This document shows, in pieces, positions 2,196 through 13,792 of a stretch of 64,000 nucleotides of DNA (its first letter is position 1; the number at the start of each line of letters is the position of its first letter). Under the pieces are notes generated by a model. That model searched no databases. It was given only the letters and a program-made list of their open reading frames with translations, and was not told where the DNA came from. The stretch comes from Erythrobacter ramosus (lineage in GTDB: Bacteria > Pseudomonadota > Alphaproteobacteria > Sphingomonadales > Sphingomonadaceae), in contig NZ_WTYB01000001.1 in assembly GCF_009828055.1 (NCBI RefSeq), positions 511,183 through 575,182 on the forward strand, read 5' to 3'. Position numbers and translations under genes: made by a program.

Positions 2196-3353
2196 ATGGC
2201 TTTGCTCGACAATATCCTCTCCGCCTTCAAAGGCGGGGAGCGCACCCGCGTGCCGCTTGCGCATGGCGCTATACAGGGCTGGCCGCCCGCGTTTGATCCC
2301 GGCCCGAGGCTACGCGGCTATGATTATACCAAGGGCATCACCGAAGGGTTCCTGGCCAACCCCATTGCCCAGCGTTCGGTGCGGCTGCTGGCCGAGGGGG
2401 TCGGGCAAGCGCCGCTCCAATGCTCCGACCCGCGTCTGGCTGCGCTGGTAACGGCGACCAGCGCGGGCCAATCGCTGATCGAAACGCTCGCGGCCAACCT
2501 GCTGCTGCATGGCAATGGCTATGTGCAGATTCTGAAGGATGCGGCCGGTGTGCCGGTCGAGCTGTTCGCGCTGCGCCCGGACCGGGTCAAGGTGGTGCTC
2601 GATCACAATGGCTGGCCGTGCGGCTATGATTACTCCGTCGGCGGCCACACCAGCCGTTTGCCGATCGAGGATGAGGACGGGTGGCCCGGCCTGATCGCGA
2701 TCCGGACGATGCACCCGCTCGACGATCATCGCGGGGCAGGCGCACTTCAGGCGGCATGGCAGGCGGTGATGATCCACAATGCAGCGACCGTCTGGAACCG
2801 CGCGCTGCTGGAGAATGCGGCGCGGCCTTCGGGCGCGCTGGTTCACGAGTCGGGCGACGGCGCGGCGCTGACGCTCGAACAGTTCGACCGACTGAAACGC
2901 GAGCTCGACGTTGCCTTTTCGGGCGCGGTCAATGCGGGCCGCCCGATGCTGCTCGACGGCGGGCTCAAGTGGCAGAGCATGGCGCTCACCCCTGCCGACA
3001 TGGACTTTGCGACCCTCAAGAGCGCGGCGGCGCGGGATATTGCGCTGGCGTTTGGCGTGCCGCCGATGCTGCTCGGCCTGCCGGGTGACAACACCTACGC
3101 CAATTACCGCGAGGCAAGCCGCGCACTGTGGCGGCTGACCCTGCTGCCGCTCGCCGAAAAGCTGCTTGCAGCCCTGCGCGAAGGCCTCGCCCCGTGGTTT
3201 CGCGATGCCGAGCTCAGGATAGATCTCGACCGGGTTCCGGCCCTGTCCGAAGACCGTGAGCGCCTGTGGTCGCAGGTCTCGGACGCCGATTTTCTGAGCC
3301 GCGCCGAAAAGCGCCAGATGCTGGGCCTGCCGCCAGAGGAGACTGCCCCATGA
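2196..3353 (+). CDS. GTA portal protein, HK97 family (RcGTA g3-like)
   Basis: 385 aa, usual size for phage HK97-type portal proteins. These form the dodecameric ring at the unique capsid vertex through which DNA enters and leaves. Recognisable segments are the N-terminal GFLANPIAQRSVRLLAEGV, the middle ALRPDRVKVV, and GVPPMLLGLPGDNTYANYREA near residue 290, a hallmark of the family. AAGGAA lies a few bases before the ATG. The stop overlaps the next start (ATGA at 3350-3353), so the gene belongs to the same translational chain as the terminase and protease. Confidence 0.92.
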   Translation: MALLDNILSAFKGGERTRVPLAHGAIQGWPPAFDPGPRLRGYDYTKGITEGFLANPIAQRSVRLLAEGVGQAPLQCSDPRLAALVTATSAGQSLIETLAANLLLHGNGYVQILKDAAGVPVELFALRPDRVKVVLDHNGWPCGYDYSVGGHTSRLPIEDEDGWPGLIAIRTMHPLDDHRGAGALQAAWQAVMIHNAATVWNRALLENAARPSGALVHESGDGAALTLEQFDRLKRELDVAFSGAVNAGRPMLLDGGLKWQSMALTPADMDFATLKSAAARDIALAFGVPPMLLGLPGDNTYANYREASRALWRLTLLPLAEKLLAALREGLAPWFRDAELRIDLDRVPALSEDRERLWSQVSDADFLSRAEKRQMLGLPPEETAP

Positions 3354-3655: not shown

Positions 3656-4059
3656 GCGCGTCCGCCCCGCTGCGCTTTGCGGGCTACGCCGCCCTGTTCG
3701 ACATTGCCGATGCCGGGCGTGACACGATCCGGCGCGGTGCCTTTGCCCGCACGCTGGCGGCGCGTGACCAGCCGCTGCCGCTCTATTGGCAACACCGGCC
3801 AGATCAGCCGATCGGCGTGATCGAGCAAGCTACCGAGGATGCCCGCGGCCTGCGCGTCATCGCCCGGATCGACCGGCCCGATTGCCGCGCAGCGCATCTG
3901 CTGGCGGCAGGCCACGTCACCGGCCTCAGCTTCGGCTTCCGCACCCGCGCAGCGCGGCAATCGATGGCGGGGCGCGAATTGCTGGAGATCGACCTGTTCG
4001 AAGTCAGCCTTGTCACCCATCCGCTCCACCATCTGGCGCGGGTCCATCTGGTCGCCTGA
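3652..4059 (+). CDS. GTA prohead protease, HK97/U35 family (RcGTA g4-like)
   Basis: 135 aa. It trims the capsid protein during maturation. The family's catalytic residues are visible: His48 in LYWQHRPDQPIG and Ser93 in GHVTGLSFGFR, with the acidic stretch LEIDLFEVSLVTHP following. The start is the GTG at 3652 inside GTGA, overlapping the DUF6127 stop; no ATG in frame gives a better fit, and the length agrees with HK97 proteases that are not fused to capsid. The N-terminus begins directly with the family's LRFAGYAALFD, which supports the start. Confidence 0.88.
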   Translation: MSASAPLRFAGYAALFDIADAGRDTIRRGAFARTLAARDQPLPLYWQHRPDQPIGVIEQATEDARGLRVIARIDRPDCRAAHLLAAGHVTGLSFGFRTRAARQSMAGRELLEIDLFEVSLVTHPLHHLARVHLVA

Positions 4060-4088
4060 GCGCGCCCGCCAACTACCCTCTTTCCACC

Positions 4089-4113
4089 GGCCGCCTTTGG
4101 GGCGGCCTTTTTT
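4089..4113 (+). terminator. Terminator-like hairpin between protease and capsid genes
   Basis: Perfect 7-bp stem GGCCGCC (4089-4095) / GGCGGCC (4101-4107), 5-base loop, then six Ts (4108-4113). It has every property of an intrinsic terminator, yet it lies inside the GTA operon, 27 bases before the capsid ATG. It could lower read-through, or mark the end of an early transcript with a separate start for the capsid, or protect the capsid mRNA after processing. Confidence 0.65.
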
Positions 4114-4139
4114 CTGCCCAACCGAAAGGCCACTGCCCC

Positions 4140-5294
4140 ATGGACAATACCCCCACTCCGATGACCGCCACCGACCCGCTGGACGCCAGCTTCGACCTTT
4201 TGGCGCGGCAGGATCAGGCCGAAGCCGATATCACCGCGCTGCGCGGCGATGTTGACGAGGTGAAATCGCGGCTCGACAAAGTTGCCCGCGCAGCCAGCCG
4301 TCCGGCAATGGGCGGCGCTGCTCCGGCAAGCGATGCAACCGAGGTGAAAAGCTTCGTCGATGGCTATCTGCGGCGCGGGCGCGAGACCGAGCTGAAGTCG
4401 ATCAGCGGGGTCGCTCCGGCTGACGGCGGCTTTGCCGTGCCGCGCCAGATCGACGCGCTGATCGCAGATGTCCTCACCAGCATCAGCCCGATCCGCGCTA
4501 TTGCGCAGGTCGTTCAGACGGGGACGGCAGGCTATCGCAAGCTGGTCACGACCAGCGGCACGGCCTCAGGCTGGGTCAGCGAAGTGGCCATGCGGCCCGA
4601 AACCGCCACGCCCAAATTCGCGGAAATCGCCCCGCCGATGGGTGACCTCTACGCCAATCCAGCGGCCAGCCAGGCAATGCTCGACGACGCCGGGTTCGAC
4701 ATTGAAACCTGGCTCGCCAGCGAGATCGCGGTCGAGTTCGCGCGCGCCGAAGGCAGTGCCTTCGTCAAGGGCACCGGCACCAACCAGCCTGAAGGCTTCC
4801 TCACTGCGGCCAAGGCCACCACCCCAGACGCCACGCGCGCCTTCGGCACGTTGCAATATGCTGGCTCGGGCAACGCCACCGGGCTCGGCACGGCGCCCGA
4901 CACCAAGCTGATCGACCTGGTCCATATGCTCAAGGCCGGTTACCGACAGGGCGCAGTGTTCGTCATGAACTCGGCGACCTTGGCTGCGATCCGCAAGCTC
5001 AAGACGGTCGATGGCGCATTGCTTTGGCAGCCGGGTCTGGTCGAAGGCCAGCCCGACCGCCTGCTCGGCTACCCGGTGGTCGAGGCCGAGGATATGCCTG
5101 ATGTCGCCGCAGGAACCTTCCCGATTGCCTTCGGTAATTTCCGGTCCGGCTATCTGATCTCGGAGCGCGGCGCCACGCAGGTGCTGCGCGATCCCTTCAC
5201 CAACAAGCCCTTCGTCCATTTCTACGCGACGAAGCGGATCGGCGGGAAGGTGCTCGATTCGAACGCGATCAAGCTGCTGAAGATCGAGCTGTAG
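4140..5294 (+). CDS. GTA major capsid protein, HK97 fold (RcGTA g5-like)
   Basis: 384 aa. Residues about 15-60 (DLLARQDQAEADI, DEVKSRLDKVARAA) form the coiled delta region that acts as scaffold and is removed by the g4 protease. The HK97-type shell domain follows, with the family-typical GGFAVPRQIDALI, the central GTGTNQPEGFL and the end RIGGKVLDSNAIKLLKIEL. The start at 4140 follows GAAAGG and removes a spurious upstream extension that overlaps g4. The gene is bracketed by a terminator-like hairpin before it and a long hairpin after it, unlike the tightly overlapping genes around it. Confidence 0.93.
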   Translation: MDNTPTPMTATDPLDASFDLLARQDQAEADITALRGDVDEVKSRLDKVARAASRPAMGGAAPASDATEVKSFVDGYLRRGRETELKSISGVAPADGGFAVPRQIDALIADVLTSISPIRAIAQVVQTGTAGYRKLVTTSGTASGWVSEVAMRPETATPKFAEIAPPMGDLYANPAASQAMLDDAGFDIETWLASEIAVEFARAEGSAFVKGTGTNQPEGFLTAAKATTPDATRAFGTLQYAGSGNATGLGTAPDTKLIDLVHMLKAGYRQGAVFVMNSATLAAIRKLKTVDGALLWQPGLVEGQPDRLLGYPVVEAEDMPDVAAGTFPIAFGNFRSGYLISERGATQVLRDPFTNKPFVHFYATKRIGGKVLDSNAIKLLKIEL

Positions 5295-5356
5295 GCCCAG
5301 CGCCAGATCTCCTCCCCCGGCCGGTCGCGTGTCCCCTTCGTGCCCGCCGGGCTCTC

Positions 5357-5409
5357 GCGCCCGCATCGCCTCAGGCCGTTCCCCCGCCTGAAACCAGCGA
5401 TGCGGGCGC
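5357..5409 (+). promoter_or_regulatory. Long hairpin between capsid and connector genes
   Basis: A perfect 13-bp stem, GCGCCCGCATCGC (5357-5369) with GCGATGCGGGCGC (5397-5409), encloses a second 6-bp stem TCAGGC/GCCTGA (5371-5376/5386-5391). No T-tract follows, so it is not a classic terminator. A structure this stable just after the capsid stop would protect that mRNA from 3' decay and hold back expression of the genes behind it. Confidence 0.6.
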
Positions 5410-5443
5410 ATTCCTTGTGAATCACATTCTGGGAGACACCGCG

Positions 5444-6001
5444 ATGCAGCGGACAATCGTGCAGCCCCCGATGCCCGGCGACGCCGCGCTGGCGGAGCTC
5501 AAGCACTGGCTCGGGATCAGCCGCCCCAACGAAGACGAAACGCTTGAGCAACTGCTCGATGCCAGCCTGACCATCTGCGAAGCCTTCACCGGCAAGACGC
5601 CACTTCGGCAGACGGTCGAGGAAGTCATTCCGCTGGCGGGGGGATGGCAGGAGCCGGTCTCCCGCCCGGTTCGCGAGGTGACCGGCGCGGAGCTCATAAA
5701 GGCGGACGGCTCCCGCGAGGTGATCGCCGCGCTGACGGACGCGCTGGAATGGCGCATCTCAGGCTCGGCCTGCGTCCAGCTGCGGCGCCCGTTCGAGGGC
5801 CAAGGCCTGGCGCTGCAATTGGTGGTCGGGATTGCCGAGGACTGGAGCGGACTGCCCGCCCCGCTGCGGCATGGCATAATCCGGCTCGCCGCCCATCACT
5901 TTCGCCACCGCGATGGCACTGGCGAAACCAGCGCCAGCGCCGTTCCGCCTGCCAGCGTCACCGCCCTGTGGCGGCCGTGGCGCGACGTGCAGTTCGGATG
6001 A
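5444..6001 (+). CDS. GTA head-tail connector (RcGTA g6-like, phiE125 gp8 type)
   Basis: 185 aa. Matches the helical adaptor proteins that dock under the portal (phiE125 gp8 / gp6-like connector): an N-terminal four-helix part with LKHWLGISRPNEDETLEQLLDASLTICEAFTG, then a beta-rich end. The ATG at 5444 was chosen because GGGAGA (5431-5436) lies 7 bases upstream; the alternative GTG at 5417 has no such site. The stop overlaps the next start as ATGA. It is the first gene after the long hairpin that follows the capsid gene. Confidence 0.82.
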   Translation: MQRTIVQPPMPGDAALAELKHWLGISRPNEDETLEQLLDASLTICEAFTGKTPLRQTVEEVIPLAGGWQEPVSRPVREVTGAELIKADGSREVIAALTDALEWRISGSACVQLRRPFEGQGLALQLVVGIAEDWSGLPAPLRHGIIRLAAHHFRHRDGTGETSASAVPPASVTALWRPWRDVQFG

Positions 6002-7278: not shown

Positions 7279-7475
7279 CCGACGGTTTCGGTGTCGCCGC
7301 CGCCCGCTGGTGCGCGCTCGCCGCTCGTCTGCTCGGCTGGCGGCCCGCCGAATTCTGGAACGCCACCCCCGCCGAACTGGCGATGGCGCTCGCTGCCCCC
7401 GAAGACCCTACCACCCCTTCACCACCGAGCCGCGAGGCAATCGCCCGCATGATGGAGCGCGACACCGATGACTGA
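7275..7475 (+). CDS. Phage tail assembly chaperone, TIGR02216 type (RcGTA g10.1-like)
   Basis: 66 aa. The WRPAEFWNATPAELAMAL core is the recognisable signature of the short TIGR02216 / tail assembly chaperone family, which is placed just before the tape measure in GTAs. Start ATG 7275 overlaps the previous stop; the end overlaps the tape measure start by 8 bases. No upstream extension is needed although the frame is open further left, since the upstream part is antisense-like shadow of g10. Confidence 0.8.
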   Translation: MTDGFGVAAARWCALAARLLGWRPAEFWNATPAELAMALAAPEDPTTPSPPSREAIARMMERDTDD

Positions 7476-8043
7476 CAATTTCGAAGAACTGGTGATCGAC
7501 GTTCGCGCCAGCACCGATGGCTTTGCCAGCGATGTGGAAGCGATGCGCCGCACGCTCGATGGGTCGCTGCTGGACGGGTTCAGCCGTGCGGGCAATGTGC
7601 TGGAGCGGGGGCTGCTCGGCGCGCTGCGGCGCGGGAGCCTGGGGTTCGACGATCTGAAGCGCGTGGCCTTCAGCGCGCTCGCCGAGATCGCCGGATATGC
7701 GCTGCAATCGGGGATCGGCAATCTGTTTGGCGGCACTAGCGGCGGAGCCGGGGGTTTGGGCAATCTGCTCGGCCAATCGATCGGCGCGCTGTTCGGCCTG
7801 CCGGGCCGGGCGACCGGCGGGCCGGTGGCGCCCGGGCGGGCCTATCTCGTCGGCGAGCGCGGGCCGGAATTGTTCGTGCCCACGGCCGCTGGCCGGGTCG
7901 AGACCGGCATGGCGGCGCCGGGCCGCGATGTTCGCGTGGCGATCCAAGTCGCCGTTCCGCGCGGACAAGCGGCACCCACTGCGATGCAGCGCTCTTCCCG
8001 CCAGATCGCGAGCGCCGTTCGCCGCGCGTTGCAACAGGCCTGA
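7468..8043 (+). CDS. GTA tape measure protein, short (RcGTA g11-like)
   Basis: 191 aa. The C-terminal half carries the tape measure hallmarks GRATGGPVAPGRAYLVGERGPELFVP (residues about 110-135). The N-terminal part is helical (VRASTDGFASDVEAMRRTLDGSLL). Tape measures set tail length; a protein this short predicts a short tail, consistent with the GTA type (RcGTA g11 is of similar size). A glycine-rich hydrophobic stretch at about 70-110 could insert in membrane during DNA delivery. It overlaps the chaperone gene by 8 bases. Confidence 0.85.
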   Translation: MTDNFEELVIDVRASTDGFASDVEAMRRTLDGSLLDGFSRAGNVLERGLLGALRRGSLGFDDLKRVAFSALAEIAGYALQSGIGNLFGGTSGGAGGLGNLLGQSIGALFGLPGRATGGPVAPGRAYLVGERGPELFVPTAAGRVETGMAAPGRDVRVAIQVAVPRGQAAPTAMQRSSRQIASAVRRALQQA

Positions 8044-8058: not shown

Positions 8059-10380
8059 ATGGCATTCTGGCTGGCCCGCGAACGCCGCGCGCAGGAAAGC
8101 ACCTTCATCCAGCGCTTCGATCCGCGCTTCTGGACCGTCAATTTTCCCCGGCCCGCGATGGCTTCGGTGGTGACGACCGGCCCGGATTCATTGCGGGTCG
8201 ACATCGAACTGCATCATGCGGGCGAGCTGGTCGGGCTGATCTGGGAGAGCGCGGACACGCTCGATCACCCACTCCTCGCCTACCAGACCGACCGCGATTA
8301 TTCGCGCACGACGCTGCGCTTTCGCTGGCAATCGGATGGCGTGATCGCGCTCGATCAACCCAATGGGCCGACGCTGACGATCGAGGGGCGCGATGCTGCG
8401 GGGTTGTCGCGCACCTGGTACATCCGGCTGTGGAACTATGCCCATGGCACGCCGACTGATGCGCGGATCAGCCTGCCGTTTTCCGCGCTGGAAAGCGGTT
8501 ACGGCCTGCCAGGCGAGCCGATCCACCCCGGCGATATCGACCGCATGTTCATCTCGCTGGTAGCACCCGGCTTCAGCTGGGGAAGCACCGCGCTGCTGCC
8601 CTCGCGGTTCGATGGATCGGTCACCATGTCTGAAATCGCCGCCGACGGCGCGCGGGCCATGCTGGAACTGGGCGACGTCCTCGTCCCCCCGCACGGCGAA
8701 CGCATGTCGACTGCCTATGACGATGCCTACAACCAGACCCCGGCACGGTTGCTGCGGACGGTGACCGGGCTCGGCTACCGCGACGATATCGTCCACTATG
8801 TCGGGATGAGCCACTTCATGCGGCTCGCGCGCCAATCGGATGGCAGCCTGCTTGCGTCGGCTGATGGCGAGTTGTGCGAGCCTGCTGTGGTCTGGCACCG
8901 CAACCTGTTCATGTTGGCGCAGGCAGACGGCTTGGAGGTCATTGCTTCGCTCTCCTATGAGCTGCTCGACGCCTATTGTCCGGAAAGCTGGAAGCAACGC
9001 ACCGCCAGCGGTGCCCCGGCGCTGACGGGGTGGGTGCCGCCTTCAACCTTGCTGTCGCCCGCCAATCCGCAGGCAATGGGCTGGCTGGCCGATGCGGCCG
9101 AGAGGTTTGTCGCCTTGCTTAGCCAAGCAGTCCTCCCAGTCCGCTTTCAGATCGGCGAGCCGTGGTGGTGGGTGACGCCCGCGCGGGAAATCTGCCTTTA
9201 TGACGATGCTGCCAAGGCGGCTTTCGGAGGCAATCCGCCGATCATCGCGAATATTGCCTCGCCGCTCGATGCGGCGGCAACATCGCTGCTTAATGCGGCG
9301 GGCACGCTGCTTGCCCAATCGACCTCCGCGCTGACTGATGCGGTGCGGGCTGCGGCGCAGGGGCCCTCCGAGGTGCTGCTGCTCGCCTTCACGCCCACGA
9401 TCCTCGATCCTGCTACACCCGAGCTTTACCGGGCCAATCTTCCGACCGGATGGGCTGCGCCGGCATTCGACCGGTTGCAGCTGGAAGATTACGACTGGCT
9501 CACCGCCGGAGCCGACGCGGCCCGGCGTGCGGCCTATGCCTTGGTCGATGCCCGGCTCGGCTATCCGCCCGCCGATCAGGACTATCTCGCCGGTTTCGTG
9601 CTCAACCCTGCCGATGCGGAAGCGATGTGGGCGCGAATCGACAGCGGGCTGAGCGAGGCCGCCGCGCGCGGCATCACCCGGCGCTACGTCTGGGCGCTGC
9701 CGCAGGTCAATCGCGACGGCTACACCCGCCTCGCCCCTTCGCCGGAGCAAGCCATGGATCCCTTCGACAACGTACTTTACCCCTTTCCGCTGGGGCGGAG
9801 CGCCTCGGTCGCGCCCGAGTTTTCGACCTCGATCGCGGTGACCGCCTCGGGGCATGAGCGGCGCAACTCGCTGTGGTCGGACGCCCGGCTGCATTTCGAC
9901 GTCGGCCCCGGCATCCGCTCGGAAGGCGAATTGTCTGAATTGATCGCCTTCTTCCGCGCCCGCCGCGGTCCGGCGCGCGGGTTCCGGATCATGGACCCGT
10001 TCGACAATAGCTCGAACGGGATGACGGGTACGCCGACAAAGCTCGATCAATTGATCGGCATTGGCGATGGGGTGCGCGCCGATTTCCAGCTGGTGAAGTC
10101 CTATGGCGGCGCCGAGCCGCAGGTGCGCCCGATCACCCGTCCGCGCGCCGAAACGCTGGTGGTGAGCGTCGGCGGCGCGGCCAGCACCGCCTGGACGCTG
10201 GGCGAGAAGGGCACCTTGCGCTTCCTCACCGCTCCGCCTCCGAGGGCCGAAATCCGCGCCGGCTTCCGATTCGATGTGCCGGTGCGGTTCGCCGAAGATC
10301 GGCTCGATGTTGCGGCGGTGAACTTCGCCGCCGGGGAAGCGCCCTCGGTGCCGCTGATCGAAATCAGGGAGTCCGCCTGA
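8059..10380 (+). CDS. GTA distal tail protein (DUF2460) fused to a large TIM-barrel-like N-terminus (g12-like)
   Basis: 773 aa. Residues about 565-773 are the DUF2460/TIGR02217 domain (DPFDNVLYPFPLGRSASVAPEFSTSIAVTASGHERRNSLW), which alone makes up the about 200-residue RcGTA g12 distal tail protein. About 560 residues precede it: a beta-rich part (1-210) and a part (about 270-560) resembling a glycosidase-like TIM barrel, with FQIGEPWWWVTPAR at 363-376, where Glu367 sits like an acid/base residue. Non-contractile tail sheath-type proteins have such a layout. AAGGGGG lies 11-17 bases before the ATG. The stop and the next start share TGATG. The glycan-binding or cleaving role is inferred. Confidence 0.8.
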   Translation: MAFWLARERRAQESTFIQRFDPRFWTVNFPRPAMASVVTTGPDSLRVDIELHHAGELVGLIWESADTLDHPLLAYQTDRDYSRTTLRFRWQSDGVIALDQPNGPTLTIEGRDAAGLSRTWYIRLWNYAHGTPTDARISLPFSALESGYGLPGEPIHPGDIDRMFISLVAPGFSWGSTALLPSRFDGSVTMSEIAADGARAMLELGDVLVPPHGERMSTAYDDAYNQTPARLLRTVTGLGYRDDIVHYVGMSHFMRLARQSDGSLLASADGELCEPAVVWHRNLFMLAQADGLEVIASLSYELLDAYCPESWKQRTASGAPALTGWVPPSTLLSPANPQAMGWLADAAERFVALLSQAVLPVRFQIGEPWWWVTPAREICLYDDAAKAAFGGNPPIIANIASPLDAAATSLLNAAGTLLAQSTSALTDAVRAAAQGPSEVLLLAFTPTILDPATPELYRANLPTGWAAPAFDRLQLEDYDWLTAGADAARRAAYALVDARLGYPPADQDYLAGFVLNPADAEAMWARIDSGLSEAAARGITRRYVWALPQVNRDGYTRLAPSPEQAMDPFDNVLYPFPLGRSASVAPEFSTSIAVTASGHERRNSLWSDARLHFDVGPGIRSEGELSELIAFFRARRGPARGFRIMDPFDNSSNGMTGTPTKLDQLIGIGDGVRADFQLVKSYGGAEPQVRPITRPRAETLVVSVGGAASTAWTLGEKGTLRFLTAPPPRAEIRAGFRFDVPVRFAEDRLDVAAVNFAAGEAPSVPLIEIRESA

Positions 10381-11189
10381 TGCGCGTGTTCTTTGACCGC
10401 GAGCTCGACACAGTGGCGACCTTCTGGCGCATCTATCGCCGCGACGGGGCGGCGCTCGCCTTCACCAGCCATGACCGCGACCTTAGCTTCGGCGGCATCC
10501 GACATCTTGCCACCCCCGGCATGATCCCGGCCGCGATCCGTCTGACCTCCGAACTCGCCAATGACAGTGCCGAGGTGCAGGGCGTGCTCAACCACGATTC
10601 GATCTGCGCGGACGAACTGGCCGCCGGGCTGTTCGATGAAGCCGCGATCGCAATCGGTGCGGTCGACTGGATCAGCCTCGATCACCACACGCTTTACACC
10701 GGGCAGATCGGGCGGATCAAGGACGACAGCACGCAGTTTTCAGCTGAACTGCGTTCCACCAAGAGCCTGCTCGAACAAGATCTCGTGCCTCGCACCAGCC
10801 CCACGTGCCGGGCCGAGTTCTGCGGGCGCGGGTGCGGGCTTTCGGCGGTGCGGTTTACTGCGGTGGTGCCACTTGCCGCGATTGATCTTGAAGCCAACCG
10901 CGTGCGGTTTGCAGGCCTTGATGGCGAGGCGCATGTCGATGGCCGGCTGCGCTTCATGGCCGGGCCGCAGACCGGGGTGGCCTTCGGGGTCATTGATGCC
11001 GAGGGGGACTGGCTGGTGCTCGACAGGCCGCTGGTGGCTGGCACCCCGCTCGGCACACGGGCGGAATTGCGCGAGGGCTGCGACCATACCATCGCCACCT
11101 GCGCCGCGCGGTTCGGGAATGCGGCGAACTTCCGTGGCGAGCCGTTCCTGCCGGGCAATGATCTGCTCGCCCGCTACGGCCAGCCATGA
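10380..11189 (+). CDS. GTA tail hub protein, DUF2163 (RcGTA g13-like)
   Basis: 269 aa, normal length for DUF2163 hub proteins that join the distal tail ring to the tip. Cysteines at 143, 148, 152, 234 and 241 (TCRAEFCGRGC and REGCDHTIATC) fit the conserved set that binds an iron-sulfur cluster in related siphophage and RcGTA hubs. The GN-AANFRGEPFLPGND segment at the end is typical. Start shares one base with the previous stop (TGATG); end overlaps the peptidase start in ATGA. Confidence 0.88.
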   Translation: MRVFFDRELDTVATFWRIYRRDGAALAFTSHDRDLSFGGIRHLATPGMIPAAIRLTSELANDSAEVQGVLNHDSICADELAAGLFDEAAIAIGAVDWISLDHHTLYTGQIGRIKDDSTQFSAELRSTKSLLEQDLVPRTSPTCRAEFCGRGCGLSAVRFTAVVPLAAIDLEANRVRFAGLDGEAHVDGRLRFMAGPQTGVAFGVIDAEGDWLVLDRPLVAGTPLGTRAELREGCDHTIATCAARFGNAANFRGEPFLPGNDLLARYGQP

Positions 11190-11605
11190 CAGCGCCCGAC
11201 GAAGCGCTGGCCGAGGCTGCGCGGGCATTGATTGGCTGTCCGTTCCGGCTCCACGGCCGCGATCCGGCGACCGGGCTCGACTGCGTCGGACTGGTCTCGG
11301 CTGCGCTCGCGGCAAGCGGTGTGCGTCCAGTGGTTCCAAGCGGCTATGGCCTGCGCAATCTCGAGATCGCCCAGTGGTTGCCGCTCGCGCACCGCTCAGG
11401 GCTCGTGCCCGCACCCGGACCGATTAGCGCAGGCGAGGTGCTGCTGATCACGCTCGCGCATTGCCAGCACCATCTCGTGATCGCGGCTGACGCGATGACA
11501 GTCATCCACGCCCACGCCGGGCTGCGGCGCGTGGTGCTCCAGCCGCTCGATCCCGCCTGGCAGGTTCATGCCAAGTGGCGGTTCGCACCTCAGAGGGAAG
11601 GCTAG
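11186..11605 (+). CDS. GTA cell-wall peptidase, NlpC/P60 family (RcGTA g14-like)
   Basis: 139 aa. NlpC/P60-type cysteine peptidase at the tail tip, thought to open the recipient's peptidoglycan when the particle injects DNA. The nucleophile is Cys33 in GLDCVGLVSAAL; His96 in CQHHLVIAAD is the likely catalytic base, with a further His at 108 or 110 in MTVIHAHAG. Length fits the family. Start is the ATG overlapping the hub stop; the stop lies 3 bases before the next gene. Confidence 0.88.
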   Translation: MTAPDEALAEAARALIGCPFRLHGRDPATGLDCVGLVSAALAASGVRPVVPSGYGLRNLEIAQWLPLAHRSGLVPAPGPISAGEVLLITLAHCQHHLVIAADAMTVIHAHAGLRRVVLQPLDPAWQVHAKWRFAPQREG

Positions 11606-11608
11606 TTC

Positions 11609-13792
11609 ATGGCGACGATAGTTCTGACTGCGCTGGGCACAGCAATTGGCGGCCCGATCGGCGCATCCTTCGGCGCGTTGATCGGCCAGCAGATCGATTC
11701 GCGCATCTTTGCCCCCGGTGGGCGCGAGGGGCCACGCCTGCGCGATCTCGCGATCAGTACCTCGAGCTATGGCCAGCCGATCCCGCGTCAGTTCGGACGG
11801 ATGCGGGTGCCCGGCACGGTGATCTGGTCGACCGATTTGGTCGAAAGCAAGCGCAAGGAGAAGGGCCGCAAGGGCCAGCCTTCGACCACGGTCTATGCTT
11901 ACACCGCATCTTTTGCCGTGGCGCTGTCGAGCACGCCAATTGACCGGGTCGGGCGGATTTGGGCCGATGGCAACCTGCTGCGGGGCGCGCAGGATGACCT
12001 TAAGGTCGGCGGGACTTTGCGCGTCTATCGCGGCTTCGGCGATGACCCGGTCGACCAGCTGATCGCCGCAGCCAAGGGCCCTGCCGCACCTGCTTTCCGT
12101 GACTGCGCCTATGTCGTGTTCGAGAACCTCGAACTGGGCGATTACGGCAACCGCATCCCCGCGCTCAGCTTCGAGATCTTTGCCGATGGCGGGGATGAGA
12201 ACGTGTCGCTGGCGCAGTTGGTGCCGGGTGCGGCAGCCCCCGCCATCCGCGCGCCATTGGCCCATGCACGCGGGTTTGCCGATGAGGGCGGGCCGCTGGC
12301 ATCGACGCTCGCGGCGATTGACCAGGTGATCCCGCTGGTCTGCATGTCGGGCAGCGAGGGCCTCACCATCGCTGTTCGCGACTCGGCTGCGGCGGGCATC
12401 GTGACCCTGCCCGGCCAACTCGCGACAGGTGACCGACAGCAAGACGAAGCATCGCACAAACAGCGCGCTGGCGTGCCCGCACGCTCCCCTGCTGCCCTGC
12501 GATATTACGACGAGGATCGCGACTATCAGACCGGGGTGCAGCGCGCATCCGGTGCCCGCCAAGCGGGCCGCGAGCTGATGATCGACCTGCCCGCAACCAT
12601 GAGCGCCAGCGGCGCGCGCAGCCTCGCCAATGACAGCGCCAATCGCGCGCGGTGGCAGCACGAGACCGTTAGCTGGCGAATCGGTGAGCTCGATCCGCGG
12701 GTCACGCCCGGTTGCATTGTGCGCCTGCCGGATATGCCTGGCCACTGGTTGCTACGCAGCTGGGAATGGCTGGATCGCGGGATCGCGCTCGAGCTGGAGC
12801 GACTCGCGCCCGCAGGCGGTGCCGCGCGTCAGAGTGACCCGGGGGAGAGCTTGTCGCCCACCGATCTCGTCATTCCGCCGACCCAGCTTGCAGCCTTTGA
12901 AGTCCCATCCGATGCCAGCAGCAACCCGGCCAATCCGCTGATCTTTGCAGCGGCTTCTGGCGCGAACAGCGCTTGGCGAGGGGCGGCCCTGTTCGCCGTT
13001 CAGGGCACCGCGCTGGTCGATCTCGGCACCACGGGAACGCAGCGCGCGGTGATGGGAGCGCTTGGTCAGCCGCTCGAGCCTTCCTCGGCGCTCTTGTTCG
13101 AACCGGCAGAGACTGCGGTGATCGATCTGGTCGCGGGCGATCTCGATCTGGCGGACACCGACCTTGCGGGCCTCGCCGCCGGCGCCAACCGTGTGCTGAT
13201 CGGCGGTGAGCTGGTGCAGTTCCTACGCGCCGAGCCTGTAAGCGAAGGTCGCTGGCGGCTGGCTGGGCTGTTGCGCGGACGGGGCGGCACCGAGCCGGAG
13301 GCTGCCCGGGGCCACCCAGCACAAACACAGGTGGTCGTCATCGACGACAATCTGGTCCCGCTTGATCCGCAATTGGTCCCGCCCCTTGCGACCTCGCGAA
13401 TCGCCGCGATCGGGACGGGCGATCCAGAAACCATCATCGCCCCGCTCGCCAATCCAGGCCTCTCGCGCCGACCGCCATGCCCCGTCCATCCGCGTGTGCG
13501 CATCGAAGCCGATCAGGCCAGCCTGTTTAATTGGACCCGGCGGGGGCGTGGGCAATGGCGTTGGGAGGACAGCGTGGAAGTTCCGCTGGTCGAGGAGCGA
13601 GAGGCCTATCTCGTCGGCTATGGCCCGGTCGATGCTCCGCATGCCGCCTGGCAGCGCGATTCCGCCTGGCTGCGCCTGACTTTAACGGAGCGGACGGCGC
13701 TGATTGCCGCACACGGTCCGGCTCCAATGTGGGTCAGGCAGGTCGGCACCTTTGACCATTCGCTGCCGCTGCTGCTCGCTTCATTGTCCTGA
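11609..13792 (+). CDS. GTA tail tip/baseplate protein, shortened megatron (RcGTA g15-like)
   Basis: 727 aa. The N-terminus (MATIVLTALGTAIGGPIGASFG, then YGQPIPRQFGRMRVPGTVIWSTD and RIWADGNLLRG) matches the start of GTA g15. The middle (GARSLANDSANRARWQHETVSWR) and LAGLLRGRGGTEP region match its phage-tail_3 and C-terminal parts. RcGTA g15 is about 1,300 residues and includes a glycoside-hydrolase-like TIM domain; that portion is absent here, with the frame running directly from the N-terminal to the tail_3 module. The missing length is close to the extra length in g12. No frameshift is visible. Confidence 0.85.
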   Translation: MATIVLTALGTAIGGPIGASFGALIGQQIDSRIFAPGGREGPRLRDLAISTSSYGQPIPRQFGRMRVPGTVIWSTDLVESKRKEKGRKGQPSTTVYAYTASFAVALSSTPIDRVGRIWADGNLLRGAQDDLKVGGTLRVYRGFGDDPVDQLIAAAKGPAAPAFRDCAYVVFENLELGDYGNRIPALSFEIFADGGDENVSLAQLVPGAAAPAIRAPLAHARGFADEGGPLASTLAAIDQVIPLVCMSGSEGLTIAVRDSAAAGIVTLPGQLATGDRQQDEASHKQRAGVPARSPAALRYYDEDRDYQTGVQRASGARQAGRELMIDLPATMSASGARSLANDSANRARWQHETVSWRIGELDPRVTPGCIVRLPDMPGHWLLRSWEWLDRGIALELERLAPAGGAARQSDPGESLSPTDLVIPPTQLAAFEVPSDASSNPANPLIFAAASGANSAWRGAALFAVQGTALVDLGTTGTQRAVMGALGQPLEPSSALLFEPAETAVIDLVAGDLDLADTDLAGLAAGANRVLIGGELVQFLRAEPVSEGRWRLAGLLRGRGGTEPEAARGHPAQTQVVVIDDNLVPLDPQLVPPLATSRIAAIGTGDPETIIAPLANPGLSRRPPCPVHPRVRIEADQASLFNWTRRGRGQWRWEDSVEVPLVEEREAYLVGYGPVDAPHAAWQRDSAWLRLTLTERTALIAAHGPAPMWVRQVGTFDHSLPLLLASLS

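Follow-up and report, generated by a model that had tools for sequence, protein, structure and literature searches.

The stretch of DNA analysed here (hereafter the window) comprises 64,000 nucleotides of Erythrobacter ramosus contig NZ_WTYB01000001.1, and coordinates without a locus label are positions within it. It carries a gene cluster of the type known from the gene transfer agent (GTA) RcGTA, and two tail-tip genes of this cluster form the subject of the analysis: g12, which encodes the Dit protein and is extended by a triosephosphate isomerase (TIM) barrel, and g15, the megatron gene, which lacks the barrel carried by its RcGTA counterpart. The features of both genes, with strands of the g12 barrel numbered b1 to b8, are as follows.

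8059..10380, plus strand: g12, fusion of NCTSP_N, TIM-barrel_NCTSP and Dit (DUF2460), 773 aa (Pfam, PDB match, AlphaFold2)
8107..8673, plus strand: NCTSP_N, all-beta N-terminal domain, aa 17-205 (Pfam PF23844, E 3e-91, 304.2 bits, cut-off 27, profile positions 1-191 of 191; strands in the model)
8686..9723, plus strand: sheath-type TIM barrel, aa 210-555 (Pfam PF23845, TIM-barrel_NCTSP, E 6e-164, 545.6 bits, cut-off 27, profile positions 1-348 of 348; nearest structures; model)
8959..8961, plus strand: E301 codon, just after b3 (E in 324/324 aligned rows)
9157..9159, plus strand: E367 codon (QIGEPWWW), just after b4 (E in 324/324 rows)
9202..9204, plus strand: D382 codon, loop after b4 (D in 324/324 rows)
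9484..9486, plus strand: E476 codon (QLEDYDW), end of b6 (E in 322/324 rows, 2 gapped)
9769..10368, plus strand: Dit/DUF2460 domain, aa 571-770, Rcc01695 family (Pfam, E 8e-69; TIGR02217, 180.3 bits)
11609..13792, plus strand: g15, a 'short megatron' without the peripheral TIM domain, 727 aa (Pfam, RcGTA match)
12233..12295, plus strand: g15 junction, about aa 209-229, the site of the peripheral TIM region of about 600 aa in PF13547-bearing g15 (comparison of open reading frames, ORFs)

The three Pfam domains of g12 lie end to end. Its Dit part (aa 569-770 in this match) exceeds the curated TIGR02217 cut-off of 136.65 bits and matches the RcGTA g12 chain 6tba_6B (E 5e-41), and the closest named relative found, from Porphyrobacter sp. 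SLTP, is 93% identical to g12. An AlphaFold2 model based on a 40-row alignment (g12 and 39 relatives; mean pLDDT 90.2, pTM 0.84) shows an all-beta N-domain, a complete (beta/alpha)8 barrel between residues 215 and 544 (strands at 215-219, 243-247, 293-299, 361-366, 437-444, 472-476, 507-510 and 541-544) and a less certain Dit part, whose lowest-confidence stretch is 563-603. An earlier note, made from the sequence alone, had taken the N-terminal region, with its motif FQIGEPWWW (residues 363-371), for a TIM barrel, and both the model and PF23845 bear this out. The nearest solved structure is gp64 of phage N4, which occupies Foldseek ranks 1-2 and aligns with a Z of 28.0-29.5 over 297 residues (rmsd 2.3-2.4, 32% identity); the barrel also matches gp64 in sequence (E 1.6e-44), and g12 residues 9-93 are similar to N4 gp65 (E 4e-17). 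Next come a glycoside hydrolase (GH) 42 beta-galactosidase, a GH14 beta-amylase and PgaB, with Z of about 22-23; in VIA-align the fold compares with GH42, GH14, PgaB and GH35 structures at Z of about 20-23, and after the phage chains the Foldseek list is dominated by GH31 chains, whose TM-scores are low and rmsd values high. In N4, gp64 and gp65 form a six-fold non-contractile sheath around the podophage tail (PMC12633501). The g12 barrel is homologous to gp64, but N4 uses two separate proteins, whereas here a single protein is fused to Dit and would probably form a single ring.

The 727 aa g15 carries Phage-tail_3 (233-386) and Rcc01698_C (480-576) domains and matches both ends of RcGTA g15, at residues 21-203 and, weakly, 840-1247, the region between being absent; the peripheral domain of RcGTA g15 spans residues 230-744 (PMC7296036). 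A profile search for PF13547 (GTA_TIM), the family of the g15 barrel, gave no match in g15, in g12 or anywhere in the genome. The distance from the N-terminal part of g15 to the tail_3 module has a median of 595 aa in ORFs with the g15 barrel (61 ORFs, 549-629) and of 33 aa in those without it (187 ORFs, 22-425, the long end of this range being a prophage type with a different insert). The megatron equivalog model NF048004 reaches 340.5 bits on g15 in two stretches, under its cut-off of 800. Pfam, the RcGTA match and the model thus agree with the observation in the earlier note that a large g12 stands beside a short, barrel-less g15.

The fusion was mapped over Sphingomonadales, the window's order, in 196 genomes drawn evenly from it: PF23845 was matched in 99, PF13547 in none and the Dit domain in 102. 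By a reading of the match tables, 95 of these 99 genomes have barrel match and Dit in the same open frame (with the barrel match incomplete or in two pieces in G047, G098 and G144), and the g12 gene is broken in G010, G035, G072 and G140. The three genomes with Dit only are G021 and G065, whose loci have long tape measures (838-943 aa) and are prophage-like, and G039, whose locus is divergent. Six of the order's family codes (f1, f3, f4, f6, f7 and f8) include genomes with the fusion. A class sample of 337 genomes yielded the sheath barrel in five (the window's genome, three more of its family and the prophage-like locus G352), a g15-barrel match in 34 (including an RTX GH113 protein in G287 and a remnant in G347) and both in none; of the 16 PF23845 matches in a phylum sample of 398 genomes, 14 are from the family of the window (counting the window's own genome), one is G352 and one scores below the cut-off. 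At the level of loci (L126-L443, four fetches), both barrels occur together in 0 of 318, the sheath barrel with a complete g15 ORF in 168 (74 named genome loci, 54 and 40 from viral collections) and the g15 barrel with Dit in 70. All 80 named genome loci have the sheath barrel, 78 of them in a complete three-part ORF (L189 is split and L191 cut at a contig end), and a complete g15 ORF is present in 74, none with the g15 barrel. Where the flanks of g15-barrel genome loci were read (L110-L115 and L119-L122; L116-L118 were excluded as sheath-type), a stand-alone Dit of 193-263 aa was found in eight of the ten, L110 and L115 having no Dit. The sheath barrel and the g15 barrel are mutually exclusive in the genomes and loci examined, and none of these combines a g15 barrel with a large g12, the arrangement that the earlier note had singled out as contrary to its proposal.

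The sheath module is a phage module, and its carrier proteins vary between Dit, the hub (g13) and stand-alone forms. The prophage-like loci L089 and L092, which are from Sphingomonadales, and L104, which is from another taxonomic order, share the sheath N-domain, the barrel and a g15 without barrel with the window, but their module is fused to the hub in a protein of 899-964 aa and their Dit is separate (209-215 aa). Acinetobacter phage Loki likewise combines sheath N-domain and barrel, although in a 900 aa protein (LOKI_17) that follows a separate Dit and in which no hub domain was detected. The sheath-module protein of phi92, gp142, has 719 aa, and in N4-like contigs the module is split over two proteins. 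A carrier tree built by a quick method from Dit, hub and the g15 N-terminal part (48 rows, unrooted) places the Dit-fusion group on one side of a branch (SH-aLRT 98) and the hub-fusion group on one side of another (SH-aLRT 98), and groups the g15-barrel loci with two prophage loci bearing another g15 insert (SH-aLRT 91); being unrooted, it does not give the ancestral barrel of GTAs, a state that we can only infer. In a barrel tree of 42 rows, the hub-fusion rows form one group (98), and another group (87) unites the 17 GTA rows with the viral contig L386, whose 778 aa protein (L386:7947-10283, plus strand) has a GTA-like sheath N-domain and barrel and a different C-terminus in place of Dit.

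How the two barrels relate decides between the two origins that the earlier note had entertained, namely relocation of one module from g15 to g12 and substitution by a non-homologous one. The likeness between the missing and the extra lengths, from which that note had argued, is real, but it does not imply that one and the same module has moved. The barrels belong to different families (PF23845 in g12, PF13547 in g15), and hhalign gave 1.6% between their profiles (146 vs 89 rows) and 0.2% in a second, independent run, against 100% in within-family controls (sheath-type GTA vs sheath-type prophage rows; near vs deep g15-type rows, 4 rows). Diversity in these alignments is low (Neff 2.5-3.6), and no higher on the query side of the controls (2.5-3.1). 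A redundancy filter that admitted at most 120 GTA rows left 146 of the 324 sheath-type rows, and 89 of the 107 g15-type rows were used; the comparison repeats, with more phage rows, an earlier one of 79 vs 26 mostly close sequences. The control NT_B vs NT_S held at least one broken GTA row (L095), a fault of which the control NT_B vs NT_C is free. The nearest structures also differ: a model of the g15 barrel (L286, a PF13547-type contig from IMG/VR; 30 rows, pLDDT 79.0, pTM 0.84), in which DSSP assigns no clear eighth strand, is closest to the R4C megatron (Z 29.6, 484 residues) and then to GH113 beta-mannanases (Z 21.1-22.4). The R4C megatron chain is not among the matches listed for the g12 model, an absence that excludes nothing. 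The invariant acids, in strand numbers of our own assignment, lie just after b3 (E301), after b4 (E367), in the loop after b4 (D382) and on b6 (E476) in g12, and after b4 (E244, L286 numbering) and on b7 (E429), among others, in the g15 barrel. Relocation was rejected on profile comparison, fold search and acid strand positions. That the same module moved and then diverged past recognition is highly improbable, even though the two GH-like TIM barrels have similar total lengths, sit on adjacent tail-tip proteins and do not co-occur in any genome or locus examined: besides the differences above, the barrel in the g15 stretch starts at about residue 54 (own strand numbering), leaving no room ahead for a sheath N-domain, and the phage relatives are separate for each barrel family. 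Since both are TIM barrels, a very remote common origin is conceivable. What is supported by the unrelated families and the lack of profile similarity is the other proposal, an order-wide, non-homologous replacement in which the g15 barrel is absent and an unrelated sheath-type barrel sits on g12. The two have in common that they are tail-tip TIM barrels presumed to face glycans, and differ in family, carrier protein and invariant-acid positions.

The peripheral domain of the R4C megatron has already been termed mannanase-like (PMC10276861), and the profile of the g15 barrel aligns with a GH113 mannanase in the stretches around two invariant Glu, weakly (E 0.07-0.08). An RTX-repeat GH113 protein (L110:6923-9820, minus strand) matches PF13547 at E 7e-10, a sequence match that appears to link the RcGTA-type g15 barrel to GH113 enzymes.

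The remaining annotated genes of the cluster are listed here.

856-2181: terminase
2196-3353: portal
3786-5294: capsid
7468..8043, plus strand: g11, short and tape-measure-like, 191 aa (weak: NF058675, E 5e-4, below cut-off)
10380..11189, plus strand: g13, baseplate hub without sheath module, 269 aa
11186..11605, plus strand: g14, NlpC/P60 peptidase-like, 139 aa (Pfam and NCBIfam scores below cut-offs)

Terminase, portal and capsid are followed by connector and tail genes, including GTA-gp10, and then by g11-g15. The gene set stands in the order known for RcGTA, with g11 and g14 identified by weak matches only. Gene order, Dit domain, hub, peptidase-like g14 and the N-terminal and (more weakly) C-terminal parts of g15 are shared with RcGTA, whose g12 is a 210 aa chain and whose g15 has 1304 aa with a peripheral barrel, in contrast to the 773 aa g12 with its sheath-type barrel and the 727 aa g15 found here. 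It could be argued that the cluster is a prophage or the remains of a phage and owes its architecture to simple phage mosaicism, given that prophage-like loci of the same order (L089, L092) bear the same sheath module beside a short g15. However, these loci carry the module on g13 rather than g12 with Dit separate, the tape measure of L089 has 815 aa, and the Dit-fusion type is a group of its own in the carrier tree. In the window, terminase, portal, capsid and tail genes form a compact cluster that includes GTA-gp10 and a short tape measure, and the genes on either side of it are cellular where ORFs were tested with Pfam: upstream, among others, a LuxR-type regulator, and downstream OmpA-like, Hsp33, carbamoyltransferase, aminotransferase and cold-shock genes. 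No integration genes lie beside the cluster, and a genome-wide search, in which replication genes were not included, gave seven integrase-family matches, the closest on the contig (C2:307460-307948) about 200 kb away. A prophage identity was rejected on this gene context and on the distinct prophage architecture, and we regard it as scarcely credible.

The interpretation that we consider probable is that Sphingomonadales GTAs, devoid of a g15 barrel, have the sheath N-domain and barrel fused to Dit and present them as a six-fold collar facing recipient glycans. In g12, a barrel of the sheath kind with its own beta N-domain, related to N4 gp64/gp65, phi92 gp142 and LOKI_17, is fused to the N-terminal end of Dit. 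Published work on RcGTA-like tails places Dit, as a ring of six subunits, between the tail tube and the hub; the tail tip of R4C, which is RcGTA-like, contains six copies of Dit, three of hub and three of megatron (PMC10276861), and RcGTA Dit touches hub and megatron with, among other parts, its N-terminus (PMC7296036). Because of this stoichiometry and these contacts, the 565-residue extension on every Dit N-terminus would be placed around the Dit-hub junction in six copies per particle, as opposed to three barrels on the g15 trimer. By analogy, the collar is probably Dit-borne and six-fold, and the fusion to Dit suggests one ring only rather than a full sheath round the tail tube. The RcGTA tailspike TspA binds the OB (insertion) domain of Dit and the peripheral domain of the megatron (PMC13420450), so the TspA contact must differ in Sphingomonadales GTAs. 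The collar would grip or cut glycans of the recipient surface, the likely target being a surface glycan of kin cells, and recipient recognition may be altered in these GTAs. A broader version holds that the tail tip keeps one glycan-active TIM module, that which of the two it is and which protein carries it (g15, Dit or hub) are exchangeable, and that a phage receptor-binding sheath became a six-fold enzymatic collar tuned to kin glycans and a barrier to GTA exchange with other alphaproteobacteria; this we regard as speculative and rather unlikely to hold in full.

Whether the barrel cuts its glycan or only holds it is about evenly balanced, and any activity is a predicted one. In TIM enzymes the C-terminal ends of the barrel strands form the catalytic face, and the presence of conserved acids on the open side of the modelled g12 barrel suggests retained hydrolase chemistry. 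The 324 rows in which they were scored (287 distinct sequences) comprise 291 Dit fusions, 12 hub fusions and 21 others, among which L062, L095 and L189 are broken GTA copies. Selection on the module is purifying: between the window's g12 and four close relatives (L126-L129; dS is saturated in the L129 pair), dN/dS is 0.19, 0.20, 0.15 and 0.11 for the TIM part, 0.14, 0.20, 0.21 and 0.12 for the N-domain, and 0.12, 0.13, 0.08 and 0.07 for Dit. Because these values are low, the sheath module is regarded as maintained, slightly less tightly than Dit. Several points weigh against the enzymatic, recipient-facing collar proposed above. GH-D enzymes have acids at b4 and b6 and use Asp there, and Glu on both strands fits no assignable GH family. 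The g12 model is a monomer. TIM folds can be non-catalytic, as illustrated by a beta-amylase titled non-catalytic (7upv) among the structural matches. The N4 sheath is described as receptor-binding, with no enzymatic activity mentioned in the available portion of the paper (PMC12633501). Finally, L386 counts against a single clean origin, which is doubtful because this contig falls among the GTA barrels without a Dit; its position points either to capture of a GTA module by a phage or to more than one transfer of the module. It may therefore be that the replacement is real and the barrel serves as a structural or receptor-binding collar without catalysis, its acids being used for binding sugar or protein or for structure, and we give this nearly an even chance. 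The partner of gp64, N4 gp65, is a receptor-binding protein that recognises NfrA (PMC12633501, PMC12892993), the module sits on carriers as different as Dit, hub and a stand-alone protein, and 7upv points the same way; on the other hand, the invariance of E301, E367 and D382 from phages to GTAs, just after C-terminal strand ends in the model, would seem to exceed what binding alone needs.

A published methods remark notes that the lengths of g12 and g15 in Sphingomonadales differ from those in other orders, with no explanation in the portion of the text available (PMC7360931), and another gene replacement in Sphingomonadales GTAs has been published for g7, the head-completion gene (PMC9765227). 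Pfam already holds models for both sheath domains. A barrel swap as the explanation of the lengths was not found in the accessible literature searched, which did not extend to supplements and subscription papers. In that literature RcGTA is the only GTA of its type with a solved structure, and the function of its TIM-barrel domain was still termed unknown in 2026 (PMC13420450). An unrelated barrel on another protein across a whole order constitutes a natural experiment, in which the function common to both modules is what selection keeps. The swap also predicts a visible difference between particles, a six-fold collar against three barrels, and GTA tools that rely on RcGTA gene lengths or on the megatron model, with its cut-off far above the g15 score, can miss or misname these Sphingomonadales genes.

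Inserts of other kinds occur in the tail-tip genes of prophage-like loci. In L105 (1792-5328, minus strand), L106 (1201-4737, minus strand) and L108 (11299-14802, plus strand), g15 bears an insert of about 430 aa in the same slot, which resembles neither barrel and looks propeller-like by eye only, and g13 of these loci has one of about 230-270 aa. The g15 insert of the G021 and G065 loci was considered as a candidate third barrel; it has no Pfam match, gave no PDB match better than E 0.23 and hhalign values of 0.1-0.2% to both barrels, and looks repetitive and propeller-like, by eye only.

Some Sphingomonadales GTAs seem to be decaying, with a stop codon or frameshift in the barrel region of g12 (L095, L116, L118, L189 and genome G072). 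In L115, a protein (8528-9784, plus strand) joins a terminase N-domain match to a GTA_TIM fragment and tail_3 and resembles the remnant of a collapsed GTA. GTA-type g12 fusions are also filed as viruses, as in all 80 of the 80 kept IMG/VR matches (L206-L285); another such entry, from human faeces, is the unverified 'Bacteriophage sp.' record MT840053.1 (L125), which matches 83% of g12. Between g13 and g14, deep Sphingomonadales families have a gene of about 200-390 aa that runs antisense to the GTA genes, in 10 of the 10 loci compared (L086-L088, L090, L091, L093-L096 and L109; e.g., L093:8237-8929, minus strand, and L087:4147-5205, plus strand). No Pfam match was found for the two of its proteins that were tested; a K/A-rich C-terminal tail is present in the two proteins whose sequences were read, and the gene has 38 matches in the fetched loci, several of them from overlapping fetches of one genome. 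In the GTA cluster of L098 (G105), about 3.3 kb of DNA separates g13 (4913-5722) from g14 (1215-1625).

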